DNA from: Acidobacteriota bacterium
GTDB taxonomy: Bacteria; Acidobacteriota; Blastocatellia; UBA7656
Length of the DNA: 64,000 bases
Direction of reading: 5' to 3'
Assembly (NCBI GenBank): GCA_040754075.1
Contig: JBFMDH010000001.1
Coordinates: 304,903 to 368,902 of the forward strand
Shown here: positions 20 through 10,710 of the stretch, piece by piece
Position numbering within the stretch: position 1 is the stretch's first letter
Layout: every line of letters starts with the position of its first letter
Translations under genes and position numbers: made by a program
The notes under the pieces: model-generated
Database searches by the model: none
Told to the model about the DNA's origin: nothing
What the model saw: only the letters and a program-made list of their open reading frames with translations

Positions 20-3000
20 GTGCTCAACGCCTTTCGGCATCAATGGTTCTTTCACGAGTTGAGTAATGAAACAGCCGAGGAAATTGAGCAAGTGCTCAAC
101 GCCTTTCGGCATCAATGGTTCTTTCACTCGCTTGCGGGTTTTTGACGTGCAGCGTTCCCTGTTGTGCTCAACGCCTTTCGGCATCAATGGTTCTTTCACG
201 CTAGACGCGCCCCAAGTGCCGTCGCCCTTCAACAGTGCTCAACGCCTTTCGGCATCAATGGTTCTTTCACGCGGATTAATTTCATTCCTGGTTAGCCAGG
301 CAAAGCGGTGCTCAACGCCTTTCGGCATCAATGGTTCTTTCACTCGGGGTATTGATTATCATGCTTTTGATTCCAACCGGTGCTCAACGCCTTTCGGCAT
401 CAATGGTTCTTTCACAGCGTGAATTTACCGGTCGAACGAACCACCGCTTTTTGTGCTCAACGCCTTTCGGCATCAATGGTTCTTTCACCCCCGCGCCGGG
501 TTTGCGTTTTCGGGTCGGCTTAGTGTGCTCAACGCCTTTCGGCATCAATGGTTCTTTCACATTCAATTACGAATATGCGCGGCGGTTCGTTGGTGTGCTC
601 AACGCCTTTCGGCATCAATGGTTCTTTCACCGAACAGCGAAAATGCCCAGTGGTCAAAGTGGACACGTGCTCAACGCCTTTCGGCATCAATGGTTCTTTC
701 ACTCGGCGTACTCATAGGCTGCCAGTGAGTGACAATAGTGCTCAACGCCTTTCGGCATCAATGGTTCTTTCACCTTCCATTGAATCCATCCGTGAGAAAT
801 CTCATTAAGTGCTCAACGCCTTTCGGCATCAATGGTTCTTTCACGGGTGGTAATGTGACCTTGGATGCAAAAGGAACACGGTGCTCAACGCCTTTCGGCA
901 TCAATGGTTCTTTCACGATTTCCGCTTCTATGTCCTGCACCAGCCAGGTTTGTGCTCAACGCCTTTCGGCATCAATGGTTCTTTCACCGCAAATGTCCAG
1001 AAGTCAAAGAGCGCCGGAGTTGGGTGCTCAACGCCTTTCGGCATCAATGGTTCTTTCACTTTGACGAATAAAGCCTCGTAGCCTTGAAAAATCCGTGCTC
1101 AACGCCTTTCGGCATCAATGGTTCTTTCACACCTGGTAGACCTGATGCCCATTGTTGCCGTTCCAAGTGCTCAACGCCTTTCGGCATCAATGGTTCTTTC
1201 ACTGATTTTTTTGTTGACATTATATTTCTATGTGATAAGTGCTCAACGCCTTTCGGCATCAATGGTTCTTTCACTTGTGGTTCAGCGAATATCGTTGCCG
1301 AGCAATCGGAATGTGCTCAACGCCTTTCGGCATCAATGGTTCTTTCACACAAGGTTTTAGTTCTTCGCTCATGTTTGCTCCTGTGCTCAACGCCTTTCGG
1401 CATCAATGGTTCTTTCACCTGGAGGCACAGATAAAGCAGCGCGATGACCGCGAGTGCTCAACGCCTTTCGGCATCAATGGTTCTTTCACCTGCTTGACCT
1501 TGCGGTTGAAGCGCGAAAGCCAAGGTGCTCAACGCCTTTCGGCATCAATGGTTCTTTCACAAGAGGAAACTTCCGGCACCGTTGTTTTTTCAATCTAGTG
1601 CTCAACGCCTTTCGGCATCAATGGTTCTTTCACAATCCGGTTATTGGCAATGCCGAGACCATCCAGCGGTGCTCAACGCCTTTCGGCATCAATGGTTCTT
1701 TCACCGTTAAAACGCCCGAAGGTTAAGTATTTTTTTTACTACGAGTGCTCAACGCCTTTCGGCATCAATGGTTCTTTCACGGCTGAAACTCTCACAGCGT
1801 AATCCATTCTCGGTGTGCTCAACGCCTTTCGGCATCAATGGTTCTTTCACTGTAAGTGCAATGAGTTTCACATTAGCGCCTACAGGTGCTCAACGCCTTT
1901 CGGCATCAATGGTTCTTTCACATCTTCACGATTGCAGAACTGGGGGAAAAGTTTGTGTGCTCAACGCCTTTCGGCATCAATGGTTCTTTCACGTTTATCT
2001 CCACCTGTTCACTTTTGGAAGGTTTGGTGCTCAACGCCTTTCGGCATCAATGGTTCTTTCACACCAGGTTCACCCGCGCGCGCAAATGCAAATCCGCGCG
2101 TGCTCAACGCCTTTCGGCATCAATGGTTCTTTCACTAACGTTGCGGCGCGAACAACTTATTATTATTACCAGTGCTCAACGCCTTTCGGCATCAATGGTT
2201 CTTTCACACAAAATCGGGCTTTCGTTTCATTTTTTGACCCAGTGCTCAACGCCTTTCGGCATCAATGGTTCTTTCACACGTCACCTCCCACGCAACGAAC
2301 GACATCGACAGGTGCTCAACGCCTTTCGGCATCAATGGTTCTTTCACGGCCTGGCATGCTCGAACATTAAACCGGTCCCCCAAAGTGCTCAACGCCTTTC
2401 GGCATCAATGGTTCTTTCACCGGTGGCAGCGGTTTAGTGGTCGGTGCTGGCGGGAAGTGCTCAACGCCTTTCGGCATCAATGGTTCTTTCACATTCTGCC
2501 GATGTGCGACAGAAGGACGGGAAACTAGTGCTCAACGCCTTTCGGCATCAATGGTTCTTTCACAGCCTCGCAAATCTACACGCGCGCGAGGCTTTTTATG
2601 TGCTCAACGCCTTTCGGCATCAATGGTTCTTTCACTGTCTCATTTTCGTCAGGTTCGGATGATGCCGGTAGTGCTCAACGCCTTTCGGCATCAATGGTTC
2701 TTTCACGATATAGCGGTGGTTTGAAATCGCCGCGAAAAGCCGGTGCTCAACGCCTTTCGGCATCAATGGTTCTTTCACGCGGCGCTTTTTTGTGCCCGTG
2801 TGCGATTTCGTGCGTGCTCAACGCCTTTCGGCATCAATGGTTCTTTCACAATGATATTACAAAACGTATTTATGACCATCTTTGTGCTCAACGCCTTTCG
2901 GCATCAATGGTTCTTTCACACGGCGCATTTTGCCGGAAGCGGTGATCGTGCCGACCAGTGCTCAACGCCTTTCGGCATCAATGGTTCTTTCACAGAAAAT

Positions 3001-3210
3001 TCAAGCTGAAATCCCAGCGCAGTTATTTGTGCTCAACGCCTTTCGGCATCAATGGTTCTTTCACTCAAGTATTAAATTTTCTCAAAAAAGCTTAATGTTC
3101 GGTGCTCAACGCCTTTCGGCATCAATGGTTCTTTCACTCGCCAGTAATTTGATTTGCGCCACCTGCTGCGGGGTGTGCTCAACGCCTTTCGGCATCAATG
3201 GTTCTTTCAC
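20..3210. CRISPR. CRISPR array, 45 full repeats
   Basis: Forty-five copies of a 36-bp repeat start at 20, 92, 164, 235, 308 and so on to 3175. On the plus strand the repeat begins GTGCTCAACGCC and ends GGTTCTTTCAC; I saw no substitution in any full copy. Spacers are 34-40 bp, mostly 35-36, and all look different. Bases 1-19 look like part of another spacer, so the array probably continues to the left of the window. Read on the minus strand the repeat has a stem with a GAAA loop (GCC-GAAA-GGC) followed by an 8-nt tail TTGAGCAC, the form expected of a Cas6-cleaved 5' handle. This favours transcription leftward, in the same direction as the cas genes. The truncated repeats at the cas5 side argue the other way. 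No leader is visible. Confidence 0.98.
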
Positions 3211-3244
3211 AAAAGTTCGGCTAAATCACTGCGAGCATGGGTCA

Positions 3245-3322
3245 GTGCTCAACGCCTTTCGGCATCAATAAATCAGCGCGTGAAGCGACTGAGTACGCAG
3301 GTGCTCAACGCCTTTCGGCATC
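3245..3322. repeat. Two truncated CRISPR repeats next to cas5
   Basis: At 3245-3269 and 3301-3322 the repeat is present only as its first 25 and 22 plus-strand bases. Both copies keep the hairpin and the GAGCAC handle exactly (minus-strand sense) and lack the opposite side of the repeat. The interval between them is 31 bp. The end of the second copy is only 35 bp from the cas5 stop codon, which leaves no room for a normal leader. Loss of the outer side is typical of a trailer-end repeat if the array reads rightward. The intact hairpin and handle would still allow crRNA processing if it reads leftward. Confidence 0.9.
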
Positions 3323-3357
3323 TTTGAAGGAATGGAGAACAAGGAGTTTGATTGGAT

Positions 3358-4029
3358 TCAACGATTGTTTTTAATTTCAGTCCAATATTCATTGTGCGGT
3401 TTCTCTATGCTCCCACTTACGAGTTGATAAGATTCCCACAGAGTTTTTATTGATCCCACATGATCAACCCAATAAGGCATCGTCAAGGAACCATATTCTT
3501 TTCGCATCAACCAATGACAAGCTGCTCCGAATCGAAAAGGATTATTTGGCTCGTTTGGAAAATCAATGAGCAATGAAACTGAATCAATCAGGTCTCGGCT
3601 TTCGCCTAAGCTGAGACCGCCAAAACGATTGACTTCTTGGGGGTGAGTGAATGCAGCTATCAAGCGTTCCGTAAGTCTTAACTCCTTGTTGGCTTCATTG
3701 CTTGAATCAACCCAAACGCCCAAATAAATTCCCGTTAGCACCTCTTGAAAATCAGGTCGCGCATTTGTTGGGTCGCTGATGGGTTTCTTCTTAACTCTGC
3801 GAAATGTTCGTAGCACCACTGATCGCTCAGGTTTAGGATATTCATCAGGGCGTGCAATGGCTATTCGCACTCCTATATGTTTGTAGCGATTTTCTTCCCC
3901 CACTAACGAAAGCAACATTCCATAAACCGTTGCAGGAGGCGGAATCTCGTATGATTCGGCAAACTCACGAGCATAGGGCATACGAAATGAAGCTATCGGT
4001 GTTTCAATTGATAGAAAGACAGGCTTCAT
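3358..4029 (-). CDS. cas5: Cas5, dev-like (Cmx5/DevS)
   Basis: Cas5 is the Cascade subunit that holds the 5' handle of the crRNA. The protein is 223 aa and opens with the strand MKPVFLSIETPIASFRMPYA followed by the IPPPATVYGMLLSLVGE segment typical of the MYXAN/DevS type of Cas5. Its start codon overlaps the stop of cas7 by four bases (ATGA), so the two are translationally coupled. It is the last gene of the operon and ends about 35 bp before the truncated array repeats. No cas4, cas1 or cas2 follows it. Confidence 0.93.
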   Translation of the reverse strand: MKPVFLSIETPIASFRMPYAREFAESYEIPPPATVYGMLLSLVGEENRYKHIGVRIAIARPDEYPKPERSVVLRTFRRVKKKPISDPTNARPDFQEVLTGIYLGVWVDSSNEANKELRLTERLIAAFTHPQEVNRFGGLSLGESRDLIDSVSLLIDFPNEPNNPFRFGAACHWLMRKEYGSLTMPYWVDHVGSIKTLWESYQLVSGSIEKPHNEYWTEIKNNR

Positions 4030-4970
4030 AACAATTCTCCTCGCAATCGTTCGATCATCGCATCAACAGCAACCTTTACACCCGAATGCGTTTCTGCGCC
4101 AAACTGCTTTAACTTTGTGCCTGTTTCTGTGTTTGCTAAATAACCGCCGATGATTAACTCTTTTGCATCAATGTCCCCTGCTTCAACGCGCTGTAAAAGT
4201 TTAAGCGCATCAACTGTTTCAGCGCTCGGAGTGTCAAAGCAGTACAACAGACGCGGCGCGAAATCATGCGTCCATCGCAACACTATTGATTCAGGTGAAA
4301 AGTCATAAAGAAAGCGGCTGTGGTTTCCGGCGACTTCACCAAGATTACAGATTGCGTCAAGGACATGAATTGCCCGTGATGCAATATGCAAACGTGAAGG
4401 TGTTAGTGCAAAGCCATATTGATAGCGCGTAGCGTGTACCTCTGTTGCATAGAGCGATGTCGAGCTTCTTGAACCACTCTTAGAGTTAAAAGTTAAGTCA
4501 CCAACAAACGGAGTGGTTGAGACTGCGCGGGTCAACTCTAGAACTCCACGACGATTGTTTATCGTACCAGGCTTTTTCTTGCCTTTTCCTTTAGCTTCTT
4601 TTGCTTCACTTTCTGTTTCACTGCCTTCTTCTTTGGCAGCTTCGGCTCGCATATAACCTAAAACATCATCATCAATAAAACGTCTTCCATCAGGTGAGTT
4701 CCAGCCTTGCCAGTTTTCATCGCGCCAAGTGTGGGCATTGGCATTGTCATCCCAGCAACGATTTGTTGCCAAATCGTCTTTTTCATCCTTTGCGCGTTGC
4801 TGCCAGTAGTAACGCATCGCCCAACGTATTGCTTCAGCAGAAACGGTTGTGTGAAGTTCGCCTTGCCACAATAGTTTCTGTAGCGTTGTTATGTTACCTT
4901 CATTTTCGCCGCGATTATTTGCGGCTGTGCCGTTGCTCGTTAAAACTGCTCCAAACAGATGTCTTGTCAT
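4026..4970 (-). CDS. cas7: Cas7, DevR/Cst2 family backbone
   Basis: Cas7 forms the repeated backbone of Cascade along the crRNA spacer. The 314-aa protein has the DevR-family N-terminus (MTRHLFGAVLTSNGTAANNR, then GENEGNITTLQKLLWQGELH, TTVSAEAIRWAMRYYW). A charged Glu/Lys-rich linker at about residues 116-135 precedes the RRGVLELTRAVSTTPFVGD segment. A GGAG ribosome site lies 8 bp before the ATG. It is separated from cas8 by 72 bp containing a perfect small hairpin (4996-5012), an unusual gap in an otherwise overlapping operon. This gap may help give Cas7 its own translation rate, as more copies of it are needed. Confidence 0.95.
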   Translation of the reverse strand: MTRHLFGAVLTSNGTAANNRGENEGNITTLQKLLWQGELHTTVSAEAIRWAMRYYWQQRAKDEKDDLATNRCWDDNANAHTWRDENWQGWNSPDGRRFIDDDVLGYMRAEAAKEEGSETESEAKEAKGKGKKKPGTINNRRGVLELTRAVSTTPFVGDLTFNSKSGSRSSTSLYATEVHATRYQYGFALTPSRLHIASRAIHVLDAICNLGEVAGNHSRFLYDFSPESIVLRWTHDFAPRLLYCFDTPSAETVDALKLLQRVEAGDIDAKELIIGGYLANTETGTKLKQFGAETHSGVKVAVDAMIERLRGELL

Positions 4971-5042: not shown

Positions 5043-6593
5043 CTATGTTTGTTCTCCTCCTTGATTGTCACTGCTTTCTGTTTGCGTCTCTGGGCGTTTG
5101 TAACTAGCCAGTGCCAGCAATGCCAAATCCCGAGCGCGTGACCAATTCTGTTCGGTAAACATGGGTATAACCGCGCTCCAATTTTCTTGTAGCGTCTTTA
5201 ATTGACCTGCGCGTGACCAGAAGTCAGTAAGCTCTTTTCTTAATGCGCTTGAACTTTTGCACCGTGCTAACCCGACTCTCAATTTTTCATATTCCCGCTC
5301 AAAAAGAGATTTCAAATCCGCACGCTCGCGTTTAGCGCGACTACTTATTTGTCCATAGCGATAGCGCAAAGCTTCATGACAGGCTTCGACTATTACCTTT
5401 TCCGGCAACTCCAGATTTACGTTCTTAACCACTTTGTTCAATCCCTCCTTTTCAAATTTGACTAACTTGTAAGTCTCTTTGTTCTGCATGAGACTTGTGA
5501 AATTGGTGTACCACTTTCGCCCAAGAGCAAGGTTGTCTGCGAAAAGTTCTAAAGCAATACTCGGCACAATGAAGCCGCTTGCTTCTTCTCCCTTCTTCGA
5601 TTTGCTTTGCACAACTCGGTTCGGCAGCGAGTGCTTGATGAGATCATAGATTTGCAACTTGTCTTCAGAGCTTAAATCAACAGTGATTGCGGCAGTCCGC
5701 GTTTTTTGCTGAGTTGACCAGGGAACTGTGCCAAGGGTGATGACTTTGCATTGCTTACATTCTAAAGTGCGAAGTTGCTCCCGCGCTGTTGAGATCAACC
5801 TGAAAGCTGCGTCTCCGGTTCCGCAAGCGGTCAAGTCTAGCAGAGTCGCAGATCGGAGATTGCGCCGAATGGAAGCGTAAGTTTCAAGACTGTTTATCTC
5901 AGGAATAACGATTGCAAAACGTGCCTTCTGCGCGTGAATTGTTGAACGTAGATTGAAGTAAAAGCAGCCCACAGGAGCGAACAGTAATAACAAAGCGCGT
6001 TGTGGAGATTCTTCGAGTGCGGTATCTGATGTGAATGCCGTGTGACGAACAACTCCACCGGGAGCCAGCCAGCCAGCAAGTTTAACGCTCTTTGCCCACT
6101 CGTCTTTATCGCAAAAATCGCTAGCCGCTTTTTGATGACTATATTCTTCAAGTTTCGCATAATTAAGCAACACAGGAATCTCATCAACTATGAAAGTGTG
6201 CTGGTACTGACCTTTTATAGTCTTGCGTGTTTTTCCGTGTTGAAGAAAGGTGCCAAGCACACTTTGATGAATAACGGATTTTGCTTCGGGGCTAGGTTTA
6301 GCGGGGCGTAATCCGGCAAACTCAATCATTTGTGATTTGTCTCCTTGAGTATCAATACCGAAGGCTTCGGGCAACAACCAATCTAACAAACGCTGTGGTG
6401 TGCCTTCCCAATTGATCTCGATGCCATGAGCATCCAACTTAGGTGGGTACTCAATCCAATCAGGCCAATCTATTTTGTCGTCTTCTACGTCTCTAATCAG
6501 CGCATCGAGAGTCATCCATAATCCGGCTAATCCTGCGCGATGCAGCGATGAAAGACCCGGTTCATTCATTTGCAGTTTGAGTGTCTGATTCAT
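5043..6593 (-). CDS. cas8: Cas8 large subunit, dev-like (DevT/Cmx8-type)
   Basis: By position and size (516 aa) this is the Cascade large subunit, which recognises the PAM and recruits Cas3. Cas8 proteins diverge quickly, so the call rests mainly on operon order between cas3 and a DevR-type cas7, as in Myxococcus dev where Cas8 is DevT. The N-terminal part (SLHRAGLAGLWMTLDALI) and the C-terminal helical part (residues about 390-500) fit that family. I chose the ATG at 6593: it has GGAGGT six bases upstream and overlaps the cas3 stop by four bases. An in-frame ATG six codons earlier lies inside that ribosome site region. Confidence 0.85.
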   Translation of the reverse strand: MNQTLKLQMNEPGLSSLHRAGLAGLWMTLDALIRDVEDDKIDWPDWIEYPPKLDAHGIEINWEGTPQRLLDWLLPEAFGIDTQGDKSQMIEFAGLRPAKPSPEAKSVIHQSVLGTFLQHGKTRKTIKGQYQHTFIVDEIPVLLNYAKLEEYSHQKAASDFCDKDEWAKSVKLAGWLAPGGVVRHTAFTSDTALEESPQRALLLLFAPVGCFYFNLRSTIHAQKARFAIVIPEINSLETYASIRRNLRSATLLDLTACGTGDAAFRLISTAREQLRTLECKQCKVITLGTVPWSTQQKTRTAAITVDLSSEDKLQIYDLIKHSLPNRVVQSKSKKGEEASGFIVPSIALELFADNLALGRKWYTNFTSLMQNKETYKLVKFEKEGLNKVVKNVNLELPEKVIVEACHEALRYRYGQISSRAKRERADLKSLFEREYEKLRVGLARCKSSSALRKELTDFWSRAGQLKTLQENWSAVIPMFTEQNWSRARDLALLALASYKRPETQTESSDNQGGEQT

Positions 6594-9073
6594 TTTTTCA
6601 CCTCCCTCCACTTTGCCCCTGTTTTTTCACAGTAAGAAACCTCATCATTGGGCGCGATTCGGTACAGCCCGTGCTCTTTTAATCGCTCCCAACCATTTAC
6701 CGATGCTCGACCTGGAATGCTCAGAGAGCAGCGTATCGCTTCTTTTCGCTTCTCCATCCTGCCTTTGGTTTCAGACAAGCCCTTACCCGCGTCACGAATG
6801 ATTGGAACATCTCTCTCAAGCACGATAGGCACTGAAAAATCGCTTACTCTCAAAGTGTCTACCTGGCTTTTCCAACCATCATCCAGCCAAGCTGAATCTC
6901 CGCGACGCGATTGGGTTTGCGCTTGTTGAGAAGTTTGCGCTGAGGAAACAACTTTCAATTCCTCTGCCAAATCTGTTTGGCTCACAGATTGAGGATAATG
7001 CAGAAGCCGTTTGAGCCATTCATAGGCTAATAAGAAATCATCCGAAGACGCACCATTTGGTTTGACGTAAGGCATTGCATCATCAGGTTCCAGAATAAGT
7101 GCGAGTGGAACTTCTTTCGGTTCGTCTTCGTGTCGGTTGAGTCGTCCAAGTCGTTGAATGAGGGAAGCAGGCGGCGCAAGGTCGGTAATTAACAAGTCTG
7201 CCGAAAGGTCGAGAGACATTTCGGCTACCTGCGTTGTTATCGCAAAAGCTGCGCCAATCTTCTTTGGGTCAAAAGCTTCGACAACTCTTTTATGGTTCTC
7301 TCGCCGCTCAAAGTAGCGAAAACGACTGTGATAAAGATGAGCCAAAAAATTGTTTTGTTTGAAAAAGTCTCTCTCCCTTGATTCATCGTAAAGCTTGACT
7401 GTACGGTCAACGGTGTTAGCAATCCAAAGAACTTTTCCTCCACTCAACAAAACTTTTTCCGCTTCCTTCCATGCTTGAGCCTCGGGGTTTTCTTGTAGAT
7501 GCTGAAGCTTGTAACGTGGCGCATCCTCTCTCTTCTGCGGCCCTTGAATCGGCACAAGTTGGCCGCAGACTCGCTCAAGGGCTTTGAGCATATGCACTGG
7601 AAGCGAAGCGGTCATAAGCAACACGTCCGCGCCTTGAAAGGTTTTTAGAAACTTTAGTAACGCGCCGAATAGCTTTGGGTCGTAAGAGTGGATTTCATCG
7701 AAAACGAATGCTGCTCGTGCGAAAGCAGGGAATGAATAAAGCCCACGACGGTTGTTTTGAATCAATCCGAGAACGCTATCAACGGTGCATACGACAAGCG
7801 GTGGCGACCATGCTTGCAGCGATTCCAATCTCAAATCGGGAATCTCTTTGACCTCGCCTTTGGAACCAACTTCAATTAAGTCATCAGGTGTTTGAAAAAT
7901 GTTATCGAGGTCAACTACTGCCCGACTGTGCATCAGTGTTCCCTCAACCTTAGACTTGCTCACGTAGCCATTGAAGCCTTCTGATGCAGTTCCCGTTGTC
8001 GGGTAGCAGAAAAACAACTTGCATTGGTTTGCTCGCTGTGAAGCCCAGCGATAAGCTGCAATGGTCTTACCCGCGCCGCATCCCGCACGCACTAAAGTCA
8101 CGCGAGACTCGCTTTCTTCAACATCTTGTTGGAATCTTTCCCGCTCCTCATTTTTCTCAGAGCCTCGTAATCGCTCGCGCACAAGCTCATTCATGTCTTC
8201 GGTACTTAATACATCTTCCAGTGCTTTTTGAATCCAACCCTTGAGCGATTCTCTTGTTTGGCGTGAGACATTTTTTTCATTTGATAGCTCACTAGGCAAT
8301 GCAGAACCTGCAACGTCTGAAGCAACTACCATTGCTTTAACCGCTGCTAACCATTTTTTCGTTTCTTGGTCAGGTCTATCGAACCAGCTTGGCCCTTCTC
8401 TCGTGTAAAGCCTCTCCTTTAATTCAGACAAAGATTCAATATCTGTTCTGTTCTGTTCGTCGCTAAGAGAGTAGATGAACGGAGAGCCAAATTTGGGAGG
8501 AGAGCCAAGATTTAGCCGCTTTGCTCCTAATTGCAATAGCCCTTTAAAGTCTTTGTGGTTCAGATAGACTTTTAACTCTAAACCTATTGAATCTCGCGTT
8601 GGCTTATCTGTTTTTAGGTGATGCCCGACAACAGCGCAAATAGCCGCTTGAAAAATGAGTTCCGAATCAGAAACCGAAGCAGGGCAAAGCCATTCGCGCA
8701 AATCTTTAACTTGAGTGCAAAGTATTCCACTCAGAGCCTCATGTCTAATGCTTTGCGGTTGGGTTTTAACGTCGCGTAATCGGCGCACCATATTTTGAAA
8801 CTGGTCATTGGCTTTACCGAAGTCGTGAAGAAATGCGCCCAGTGTCACCGCACGTTTGAAACGCTCACTCCAAACCGAGGCGTCAAGCCCAAGCTGTTTA
8901 AGTAAATCATCAGCAGTATTTTTGAGTAAGGTTTCTGCCGCGTCTAGTACCTGTGCCGTATGTCCTTGCAGAATTTCAAAGTATTGGAGACTGCCGGTCT
9001 TACTGCGTGATTTTGCCAATAAGCGTTTGAAATCACTGTCACAATTTTTTGACGATTGTATCTGCTTGTTCAT
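6590..9073 (-). CDS. cas3: Cas3 nuclease-helicase (HD-DExH)
   Basis: Cas3 is the ATP-driven helicase and single-strand nuclease that degrades DNA marked by Cascade. The 827-aa protein has an N-terminal HD domain with GHTAQ, FLHDFGKAND (about residues 82-90) and VGHHLK (about 148). The SF2 helicase follows with Walker A GCGAGKT (about 331-337), DEIH (about 459-462), TASLP as motif III and QRLGRLNR (about 640-647) as motif VI. All catalytic motifs appear intact, so interference should be possible. The start at 9073 has GAGG upstream and is 2 bp from the cas6 stop. A longer reading frame upstream runs into cas6. Confidence 0.96.
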   Translation of the reverse strand: MNKQIQSSKNCDSDFKRLLAKSRSKTGSLQYFEILQGHTAQVLDAAETLLKNTADDLLKQLGLDASVWSERFKRAVTLGAFLHDFGKANDQFQNMVRRLRDVKTQPQSIRHEALSGILCTQVKDLREWLCPASVSDSELIFQAAICAVVGHHLKTDKPTRDSIGLELKVYLNHKDFKGLLQLGAKRLNLGSPPKFGSPFIYSLSDEQNRTDIESLSELKERLYTREGPSWFDRPDQETKKWLAAVKAMVVASDVAGSALPSELSNEKNVSRQTRESLKGWIQKALEDVLSTEDMNELVRERLRGSEKNEERERFQQDVEESESRVTLVRAGCGAGKTIAAYRWASQRANQCKLFFCYPTTGTASEGFNGYVSKSKVEGTLMHSRAVVDLDNIFQTPDDLIEVGSKGEVKEIPDLRLESLQAWSPPLVVCTVDSVLGLIQNNRRGLYSFPAFARAAFVFDEIHSYDPKLFGALLKFLKTFQGADVLLMTASLPVHMLKALERVCGQLVPIQGPQKREDAPRYKLQHLQENPEAQAWKEAEKVLLSGGKVLWIANTVDRTVKLYDESRERDFFKQNNFLAHLYHSRFRYFERRENHKRVVEAFDPKKIGAAFAITTQVAEMSLDLSADLLITDLAPPASLIQRLGRLNRHEDEPKEVPLALILEPDDAMPYVKPNGASSDDFLLAYEWLKRLLHYPQSVSQTDLAEELKVVSSAQTSQQAQTQSRRGDSAWLDDGWKSQVDTLRVSDFSVPIVLERDVPIIRDAGKGLSETKGRMEKRKEAIRCSLSIPGRASVNGWERLKEHGLYRIAPNDEVSYCEKTGAKWREVKK

Positions 9074-9075
9074 CT

Positions 9076-9726
9076 CTAACCTCTTTCTCTGACAGGCACG
9101 AAAACACCACAACACATTTTTTGTCGTCCCCCTACACCAATCTCTTGCAGCTTGATTGAATCTTCTACAGAGAGACCGCCAATCTGCACCGAATAACCGA
9201 CTATTTTTTGTCCTTTGATGTGAATGATACGGCGACTGAGTTCGTGACCTTGATGGTCTGGTTTGTCGTCAATCCAAACATCGCCACTTATATTTTGTTC
9301 TTGAAGTTTCTTTCGAATCGCAGTGATGAACATTTCGCGGGTTGGCGCAACAGTGTTTTTTTCGGCATCGCTTATCTTTATGACAACGCAGCGAGAGTAG
9401 AGCTTGTCCGATGGCTTTAACGCATAAACTTCTGGCACCCCTAATCTTATGCGGCTTTCTTTGTGAGTATTGAATAGGGCAAGACGCTTGCCAGCAAGTG
9501 GAATAACTTCGGACAAACGCTCAGATTGTAGCCGCAACCGTAACCGTGAATTCTTGGTCAGGCGCAATGTTCCATTGCCAGTAGGTAATCCAGATATTGG
9601 ATGAACAGCAAGCCAATCAACATTGTGCAGAATAGGCAACAGTGTTGAAAGCCCACTATAGAGAACATACCCGTGATCTGTCGGGATGTTGTCTCCAATA
9701 AGGCGAAAAGAAATATCTACGATCAT
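9076..9726 (-). CDS. cas6: Cas6 endoribonuclease, Cmx6 type (copy 1)
   Basis: Cas6 cuts pre-crRNA at the base of the repeat hairpin and often stays bound to it. The 216-aa protein starts MIVDISFRLIGDNIPTDHGY and ends with the glycine-rich loop IGVGGRQKMCCGVFVPV, the signature of the Cmx6 (MYXAN) group. The ATG at 9726 has GAGGAG 7 bp upstream; a TTG five codons earlier lies within that site. It is the first gene of the operon cas6-3-8-7-5. The leader before it holds the match to the hidden mini-array spacer. Confidence 0.93.
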   Translation of the reverse strand: MIVDISFRLIGDNIPTDHGYVLYSGLSTLLPILHNVDWLAVHPISGLPTGNGTLRLTKNSRLRLRLQSERLSEVIPLAGKRLALFNTHKESRIRLGVPEVYALKPSDKLYSRCVVIKISDAEKNTVAPTREMFITAIRKKLQEQNISGDVWIDDKPDHQGHELSRRIIHIKGQKIVGYSVQIGGLSVEDSIKLQEIGVGGRQKMCCGVFVPVRERG

Positions 9727-9836
9727 TTTGGTACTCCTCAATTCCTGGTTGTCAATTTATTGCTGACAACATATTCTATGCTTGTGAAAACAAGATGTGT
9801 GGAAGTAAAGGTTGAAAGACAAAAGGCACATTGGGC

Positions 9837-9856: not shown

Positions 9857-9930
9857 CATTCGAGTTAGCCCTGCAAGCCTTGTCTTCACTATGAATCTGT
9901 GCCAAGGATTCAACAGTGAGCCCTTGTCAT

Positions 9931-9950
9931 TCAACCATTGTACATCCACA
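9931..9950 (-). promoter_or_regulatory. Protospacer-like site matched by the mini-array spacer
   Basis: Read on the minus strand this site is TGTGGATGTACAATGGTTGA. It matches the first 20 nt of the degenerate spacer at 10042-10061 (TGAGGCTGTACAATGGTCGA) at 17 of 20 positions; mismatches are at 3, 6 and 18. The flanking 5' triplet (PAM position) is ATG on the same strand. The match stops after 20 nt. The site is in the leader of the cas6-3-8-7-5 operon, just downstream of a TTGACA element. Cascade bound here would be expected to block the operon without full cleavage pairing. This is inference from pattern, by analogy to CreA/CreR. Confidence 0.6.
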
Positions 9951-9966
9951 CATTGAACAAACGCAG

Positions 9967-9994
9967 TCTATTAAAATTTTAACTGCGGTGTCAA
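9967..9994 (-). promoter_or_regulatory. Putative cas operon promoter
   Basis: On the minus strand there is a perfect TTGACA (plus 9989-9994), followed after 15-16 bp by TAATAG/AATAGA (plus 9967-9973) as a weak -10. A 6-bp inverted repeat CGCAGT/ACTGCG (9962-9967 and 9982-9987) encloses the AT-rich centre TAAAATTTTA and could be an operator. Predicted transcription would start near 9960, putting the protospacer-like site at about +10 to +30. Confidence 0.45.
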
Positions 9995-10021
9995 GATTTT
10001 TTTGCACCGTATGTTTGAGTT

Positions 10022-10104
10022 TGCCGCTAGGCGTTGAGCATTGAGGCTGTACAATGGTCGAGTTTTTCATAGTTTAACTCGCTTTTCGATGATGCCGACA
10101 GGCG
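10022..10104 (+). ncRNA. Degenerate CRISPR mini-array (CreA/CreR-like crRNA gene)
   Basis: The first degenerate repeat, 10022-10041 (TGCCGCTAGGCGTTGAGCAT), matches the repeat's hairpin plus 8-nt handle at 17 of 20 positions and keeps the GCC/GGC stem. The second, 10091-10104 (GATGCCGACAGGCG), matches the hairpin at 13 of 14. The interval between them is 49 nt, which is what one 35-nt spacer plus the 14-nt 5' part of a repeat would give. The sense is opposite to the cas genes. After the second hairpin comes a T-rich run (ATATTTATTTTTCT) that could end the transcript at the cas6 copy-2 stop. A weak -10 (TATGTT, 10010-10015) precedes the first repeat. Too degenerate to be a new array unit; it looks like a domesticated regulatory crRNA. 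Confidence 0.65.
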
Positions 10105-10116
10105 ATATTTATTTTT

Positions 10117-10710
10117 CTAAAAAGTCTTCTTGTGCGAAATTGGTACGAAGAAACCGCAGCCCATGCGCCGTCTGCCGCCGAGGCCTTGTTCTTGCAACAC
10201 GAGCGAATCTTCGTCGCGCAAATCATGAATGCTCAGGGTGTAGCCGATGATGTGATGATTGCCGACTTTGAAAACCCGGCGGTTGCCGAGTTCCGGTTCG
10301 CCTTTGATGCCGCTTTCGTCCAGTTTATGCGCCACTGCTGTTAGAAAACTTTCCGGCTCGGTATGATTTTTTATCGTCACACAACGCGCATACAGCGACG
10401 ACGCCGGTTTTAACAAATTAATCTCGGGCACGCTCAGACGAATGACCGAACCGTCAACATCCAGCCGTTTGCCCGCCAGTTTCAACAACAACGGCACACG
10501 GTTTTGCGGACAACGCATTCTTAATTTGGCGCGCGGGTTTAATTGAATCGAACCGTCGCCGCGCTTTGCCCCTTGAATAGTCTCTACTGCCAGCCATTCG
10601 GCGCTGTGCGCTTCAGGAATCAGTTTTGATATGGATGCGAACAACGCATAACCATGATCGGACGGCAACGAATTGCCGAGCACCGCAAATTTCAATTCGA
10701 TATAGACCAT
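10117..10710 (-). CDS. cas6: Cas6 endoribonuclease, Cmx6 type (copy 2)
   Basis: A second Cmx6-type Cas6 of 197 aa that is clearly homologous to copy 1. It shares the N-terminal SDHGYALFASIS, the AGKRLDVDG segment, and the C-terminal loop QGLGGRRRMGCGFFVPI. It has a GGAGGG ribosome site before the ATG at 10710. It lies about 110 bp downstream of the WYL regulator in the same direction and about 390 bp upstream of copy 1, with the mini-array between. Differences across the whole length suggest an old duplication or separate acquisition, not a recent copy. It may process a different substrate or the same repeat under different control. Confidence 0.92.
   Translation of the reverse strand: MVYIELKFAVLGNSLPSDHGYALFASISKLIPEAHSAEWLAVETIQGAKRGDGSIQLNPRAKLRMRCPQNRVPLLLKLAGKRLDVDGSVIRLSVPEINLLKPASSLYARCVTIKNHTEPESFLTAVAHKLDESGIKGEPELGNRRVFKVGNHHIIGYTLSIHDLRDEDSLVLQEQGLGGRRRMGCGFFVPISHKKTF

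Follow-up and report, generated by a model that had tools for sequence, protein, structure and literature searches.

Does a single degenerate repeat-spacer-repeat unit, lying between two cas6 genes and outside the CRISPR array, encode a guide RNA that controls the cas genes beside it? The sequence-only reading had proposed such a unit in an Acidobacteriota genome, and we followed it up in the surrounding 64 kb of DNA (the whole stretch analysed, hereafter the window) and in cas6 loci of other genomes. Units of this kind recall CreR, said to be the cas-regulating RNA of Liu et al. 2023. We conclude that the unit is very probably a CreR-like crRNA gene through which Cascade represses its own cas operon, with transcription, processing and repression inferred; the anatomy, the guide-target match, its flank, the mismatch periodicity and the recurrence in other loci are observed.

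Anatomy of the unit and its cas neighbourhood

Cmx6, Cas8a1/Cmx1, the DevR-family Cas7 and the Cmx5/DevS Cas5 all score over the curated cut-offs of their MYXAN/Dev models (Table 1), which meets the criterion for type I-MYXAN and bears out the label 'dev-like' given to the locus earlier. The cas genes and the array, which counts 56 strict repeat copies on the contig and extends left of the window, run along the minus strand. The unit points the other way, its plus strand opposing both the cas operon and the array crRNA strand. The start of cas6a is likely ATG 9726, with AGGAG upstream.

Table 1 Positions of the unit, its target and the neighbouring CRISPR-Cas features in the window
Feature	Position	Strand	Basis or remark
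CRISPR array	20..3336	- (crRNA strand)	47 repeat copies in window
cas5 (Cmx5/DevS)	3358..4029	-	TIGR02586
cas7 (DevR family)	4026..4970	-	TIGR02585
cas8 (Cas8a1/Cmx1, MYXAN)	5043..6611	-	TIGR03485, TIGR03486
cas3	6590..9115	-	Family models
cas6a (Cmx6), first gene behind target	9076..9726	-	PF09559, TIGR02807 (profiled on 9076-9741)
Guide target (protospacer), read 9950 to 9931	9931..9950	-	Matched by guide nt 1-20 (10042-10061)
PAM-like ATG, 5′ of target	9951..9953	-	Sequence; ATG/GTG in other matched units too
Predicted sigma70-type promoter TTGACA-18-TAGACT	9965..9994	-	Reads into cas6a
psiR1, degenerate repeat 3′ part (hairpin + 8-nt handle)	10020..10041	+	17/20 to array repeat
psiS, guide, 35 nt	10042..10076	+	Implied spacer length 35 nt
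psiR2, second degenerate hairpin	10091..10104	+	13/14; at +50 past handle
T-rich tail 3′ of psiR2	10105..10119	+	Sequence inspection
cas6b (second Cmx6)	10117..10710	-	TIGR02807; upstream neighbour, convergent with unit

The two cas6 genes do not stem from a recent duplication. cas6b clusters with the Cas6 of other loci of the same class and phylum, several of them beside the same WYL gene, and cas6a sits elsewhere in the Cas6 tree on a long branch; a newer operon may have been placed here next to an older WYL-cas6 pair. cas1 is absent beside the array, and the genome's two Cas1 matches lie on other contigs (C37 and C43).

The first degenerate repeat, psiR1, reads TGCCGCTAGGCGTTGAGCAT at 10022-10041 and matches the hairpin plus handle of the array repeat at 17 of 20 positions, as had been claimed, being the sole non-array match with three or fewer mismatches in the 64-kb window (chance expectation 0.02). 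Its stem pairs as GCC/GGC in the fold, and its 8-nt handle is TTGAGCAT (10034-10041). The second hairpin, psiR2, reads GATGCCGACAGGCG and agrees with the array repeat hairpin at 13 of 14 positions; this match, the 49-nt gap that separates it from the handle end and the T-rich tract behind it were all found as first described. Matches of the psiR2 type with up to two mismatches are expected 1.02 times per window by chance, two further two-mismatch sites are present, and no handle-like sequence follows the hairpin on its 3′ side. The T-rich tail could possibly end transcription, by inference, although no terminator was called in it by the rule of our terminator scan. With degenerate repeats outside the array that keep the hairpin and the handle, the unit satisfies one of the criteria for CreR.

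In its own genome, the strict pattern GCCNNNNGGCGTTGAGCA occurs in the 56 array copies, in the window unit and at one site on contig C17. That last site lies inside a 622-codon open frame without a good target within 3.5 kb, and a second unit elsewhere in the genome was rejected on these grounds.

Guide target and predicted promoter

The target, which the sequence-only reading had not reported, was first seen in an inverted-repeat search of the gap, which paired 10042-10061 with 9931-9950 at 85%. Guide nucleotides 1-20 agree with the minus strand from 9950 to 9931 at all positions but 3, 6 and 18 (17 of 20), and this match begins precisely where the handle ends. When positions outside the array on both strands were taken as guides and scored at nucleotides 1-17 minus 6 and 12 against ATG-flanked sites within 600 nt, only 2 of 120,920 reached 14 of 15, the window guide being one of the two. 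The predicted promoter scores 10/12, with 2 such sites in the stretch against 0.9 expected in shuffles, and ends 11 nt ahead of the ATG flank, which places the target footprint at about +5 to +39. The partial guide match therefore adjoins a cas promoter that is predicted, not demonstrated. A weaker inverted copy of the target region, pairing 9795-9822 with 9924-9953, lies in the cas6a leader and also has an ATG on its 5′ side; it might serve as a second operator or form a stem in the RNA.

The mechanism that we propose is inferred from this arrangement. Cas6 would cleave a short plus-strand transcript at both degenerate repeats, yielding a crRNA made of the 8-nt handle and the 35-nt guide, which would be loaded into the I-MYXAN Cascade (Cas8-Cas7-Cas5-Cas6). 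The loaded complex would then bind the ATG-flanked site just past the predicted cas6a-cas3-cas8-cas7-cas5 promoter, where it would block transcription, and pairing that stops near nucleotides 17-20 should, by analogy with CreA, be too short for cutting by Cas3. The outcome would be negative feedback, in which array crRNAs or inhibitors that divert Cascade would release the cas genes, as reasoned from CreR.

Recurrence and mismatch periodicity in other I-MYXAN loci

A search for relatives with one Cas6 as query returned none. The survey set comprised 92 loci with a located cmx6, duplicates having been dropped; some carry a partial cas6, and two (L032 and L033) are near-copies. These 92 loci are a sample: the alignment query kept 80 of 105, and in one search 396 genomes were taken out of a larger phylum. 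In the 1.2 kb upstream of cas6 the loci hold 21 degenerate hairpin-plus-handle candidates, for each of which the best guide match was sought anywhere in the upstream region with no flank imposed. In 11 of the 21 this match reached 13 to 16 of 16 and was flanked by ATG (10) or GTG (1): the window, L035, L036, L038, L052, L081, L083, L084, L092, L126 and L127. L084 belongs to Thiococcus pfennigii, a cultured carrier of the unit. Shuffled guides reached 13/16 in 75 of 6,300 trials, 3 of them with a TG flank; for random positions drawn from these regions the counts were 323 and 16 of 5,400, respectively, and 76 of 5,400 scored the full 16, a sign that the upstream regions contain internal repeats. 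Together with the window null, the shuffles led us to reject a chance guide match.

The other 10 candidates had no good target in the upstream region. They comprise the second repeat of the L092 unit, six fair hairpins (L115, L117, L069 twice, L124 and L105) and three weak ones (L068, the second of L084, and L121). When nine unmatched guides were searched over whole loci, again with no flank imposed, the best match was an ATG target for three more (L079, L078 and L104, scoring 13, 13 and 12 of 15), and six had no good target there. For L115, L117, L069, L124 and L105 the stretches fetched contain no good target; their hairpin-plus-handle sites (L115:9770, L117:269, L124:9888, L105 at ~9887 and L069 at ~9907) perhaps act elsewhere in the genome or have decayed.

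With the Myxococcus loci described below, 17 further units with a guide-target match were found in I-MYXAN loci of several phyla, 18 including the window. The sequence-only reading would have been refuted by a lack of conservation in relatives, and this is not what was found: the same architecture recurs in 17 other loci, but it is patchy, a matched upstream unit being present in 11 of 92, and most MYXAN loci sampled have no unit by the rules of these searches. On a Cas6 tree of 98 rows, the 18 unit rows require 17 label changes and are as scattered as shuffled labels, with 15 of the 17 changes forced by well-supported branches. A single origin of the units was rejected on this count, and their scatter implies that they arise or turn over often.

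Mismatches between guide and target gather where Cascade flips out a base, at positions 6, 12 and 18; in type I-E, each sixth guide base is flipped out, according to the part of PMC11127173 that was available. In the first 11 pairs, position 6 is mismatched in 9, position 12 in 7 and position 18 in 10; elsewhere within 1-17, 11 of 165 cells are mismatched. Because the pairs were chosen without scoring position 6, selection accounts for part of the excess there, and position 12 alone gives a fair test (7/11 pairs, p = 9e-6). The ATG-flanked target, the 17 other loci and the mismatches at 6, 12 and 18 support the earlier proposal of a domesticated regulatory crRNA, in which the RNA, its cleavage and the repression remain inferred.

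The spacing of the unit recurs as well. The second hairpin stands at +43/44 past the handle in 8 units and at +48-50 in 7 (15/18), two classes that differ by about one 6-nt Cas7 step; outside them fall L104 (+30), L083 (+81) and L139 (+40, with a poor hairpin). Across the 14 non-Myxococcus units the stem is paired in 92.9% of cells, compared with 31 to 60% when it is slid, and stem covariation was not above shuffles, one pair being changed on both sides.

These regularities bear on whether the unit is merely a dying mini-array, functionless, whose last spacer matches neighbouring DNA by accident. Both repeats are indeed degenerate and several similar units have no target, yet only the parts relevant to a crRNA are kept, unrelated loci show the guide-target match, the flank and the mismatch pattern again, and in Myxococcus the guide has changed along with its target, which leaves this explanation very improbable.

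Orientation bears on a different alternative, in which the 20-nt arms work without Cascade, either as antisense RNA or by folding into an RNA hairpin. The arms do form inverted repeats, and a 2022 review places a 'distinct antisense RNA' on devI (PMC8730458, available in part). In the four Myxococcus loci, as in the window, the guide nevertheless has the sense of the mRNA, so that it cannot pair with the mRNA there. Across all units it is sense to the downstream gene in 12/18 and antisense in 6/18, a variation that makes action on DNA more plausible than action on mRNA, and the 6-nt mismatch period also speaks against such an RNA. Antisense action on the mRNA is disfavoured by guide orientation, and we give the Cascade-independent explanation as a whole almost no credence. 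Among the 11 loci with a matched upstream unit, 8 have unit and operon on opposite strands.

A sigma70-like promoter was found near the target in 7/18 units by our own rule, without a shuffle control: in the window, L052, L126 and L078 the predicted start falls at the target or just before it, in L038 and L084 the target adjoins the -35 box, and L127 has another arrangement. The flank is ATG or GTG in 18/18 units, although it was imposed by the search for three, and the PAM has been deduced from these same targets. Seven spacer-phage matches from four arrays (L106, L162, L163 and L164; one phage per match) have the flanks ATC, ACG, GTG, ACG, ACG, TGA and ATG, a mixture that leaves ATG as the PAM without independent confirmation. 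Neither the window array spacers nor the L166 array matched phages, and the L148 and L105 arrays gave weak matches only.

Past the target, cas6 is the first long gene led by a Shine-Dalgarno (SD) match in the window, L035, L036, L038, L081, L083, L126 and L127. In L104 and L078 a small gene pair stands there instead, the second member carrying sigma-70 region 4 (Pfam); these two small ORFs (L104:5317-5900 and L078:13151-13750) resemble a split sigma factor under Cascade control. L092 has a 186-codon ORF behind the target, of which the 179 aa tested had no Pfam match, L052 has a 75-aa ORF with weak zinc-ribbon matches only, and L084 and L079 have small ORFs without an assigned family. One device thus seems, by inference, to drive several outputs: cas autorepression, a small transcription factor or, in Myxococcus, a DevI-like protein.

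Such outputs raise the possibility of a CreTA- or CrePA-like addiction module, in which the promoter would first drive a toxin, be it an RNA or a small protein, from the ~220-nt cas6a leader, and the guide would silence it. This would suit a leader that is long and contains an inverted repeat (9795-9822 with 9924-9953), the small ORFs between target and cas6 in L052 and L084 and the DevI-like ORF in Myxococcus, and CreT toxins are diverse, some lacking a recognisable ORF (PMC8501985, as far as its text was available). The window leader nevertheless has no ATG mini-ORF with an SD match by our rule, which does not exclude an RNA toxin; it has two TTG ORFs (45 and 3 codons) with an SD match, and by eye no mini-ORF like the published rare-codon CreT ORFs. 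In L035, L038, L083, L126 and L127, moreover, cas6 begins 38-128 nt past the target, which leaves scant room. We therefore regard addiction as unlikely, if less so than the other two alternatives, and retain autorepression by a CreR-like crRNA as the preferred explanation.

Myxococcus dev-type loci and known systems

Among 31 myxobacterial cas6 loci fetched, four bear the unit (L134, L137, L139 and L140); this search required an ATG or GTG flank, and L139 had first been found without that condition. The sample covered the genus of M. vastator (27 genomes, 17 with cmx6) and the family (96 genomes, 24 with a match). The unit block is absent from L129, L135, L136 and L138, which have a close Cas6. 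The record 'Comamonas sp. KCTC 72670' (L113, on G512 C20) bears Myxococcus-type cas6 loci and groups with Myxococcus genomes, so its label is probably wrong.

The order in the four loci is target (ATG followed by TTGGT...), small ORF, psiR1 with the handle GTTGAGCAA, guide (TTGGT...), psiR2, cas6, cas3, cas8, cas7 and cas5, so that the ATG-flanked target lies directly upstream of, or at the start of, the small DevI-like ORF. In L134 this ORF has 40 codons and a GTG start behind AGGAG, the same length as the DevI of M. xanthus, which we take to be 40 residues; in L137, L139 and L140 the ATG at the target offers a further in-frame start. Of 96 genomes, three gave a relative of the L134 ORF and all three carry the unit, with the fourth carrier (G526) not matched; the DevI-like ORF has no curated NCBIfam model. 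Between L134/L137/L139 and L140, guide and target have changed identically at positions 7, 8 and 11, with no joint change at 6, 9 and 12. In one carrier, G534, the array beside the dev-type operon has a spacer that matches int of phage Mx8 at 37/37; this genome is, by inference, M. xanthus.

DevTRS negatively autoregulates by a mechanism described as unknown in 2021, with the matching spacer unknown and the activity of Cas3 and Cas6 dispensable (PMC8616872), and Cas5-Cas7-Cas8 were reported in 2022 to act on devI, a sporulation inhibitor, through a 'distinct antisense RNA' (PMC8730458), both sources being available in part. Given that the guide targets a site at the DevI-like ORF, Cascade would silence devI and the whole dev operon. 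The dispensability of Cas6 would count against this, an objection softened by a second cmx6 in three of the four unit-bearing genomes (two copies in G534, G519 and G526; one in G522). We lean towards a hidden CreR/CreA-type crRNA as the missing specificity factor of DevTRS, by which Cascade silences devI and the dev operon, with I-MYXAN systems generally self-controlled in this way (or serving addiction), a view held with less assurance than that of the window unit. The four Myxococcus-genus loci offer a testable mechanism for DevTRS autoregulation and, if it is true, a concrete, mutable guide and target.

The comparison with known systems rests on those parts of the cited papers that were available. 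The M. xanthus dev system shares the cas family, by model names, and the negative feedback of DevTRS on the dev transcript (PMC8616872, PMC8730458), but differs in that no crRNA-like guide is named for it, the mechanism being given as unknown (PMC8616872) or as an antisense RNA (PMC8730458); nor was a crRNA-like guide for Myxococcus dev or I-MYXAN named in the literature found, a search that mostly left out subscription papers. CrePA has a protein toxin repressed by CRISPR (PMC12737573), and the Myxococcus version likewise has a DevI-like small protein behind the target; DevI, however, is described as a sporulation inhibitor (PMC8730458), and no toxin protein is seen in the window. CreA resembles the unit in its pair of divergent degenerate repeats, of which the first retains the 8-nt handle and the second the hairpin, in guide nucleotides 1-5 and 7-11 that pair beside a PAM, and in the H. 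hubeiense unit directly upstream of the cas operon (all PMC8501985). The known tRNA-sequestering CreT is a mini-ORF with rare codons (PMC8501985); the window differs from CreTA in having no recognised CreT-like toxin and in a target at the cas operon's own predicted promoter.

The closest counterpart is CreR, a crRNA-like RNA from a mini-CRISPR by the cas genes with a partial guide match to the cas promoter and autorepression as its effect (PMC13131331, PMC12948488, PMC12737573). One review assigns CreR RNAs, as autorepressors of cas genes, to types I-B, I-E and V-A (PMC13131331), and another calls them widespread in 'Type I and Type V-A' (PMC12737573). The window unit differs by belonging to I-MYXAN, of the Dev family, by its ATG flank and by lying mostly on the opposite strand; it looks like a variant of CreR in I-MYXAN, though a CreR paper listing such loci is not excluded. 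Mismatch clusters at 6, 12 and 18 provide a simple signature for spotting further hidden guides, and, if the proposed function is true, the RNA-guided self-repression of CRISPR-Cas extends to Dev/MYXAN systems.
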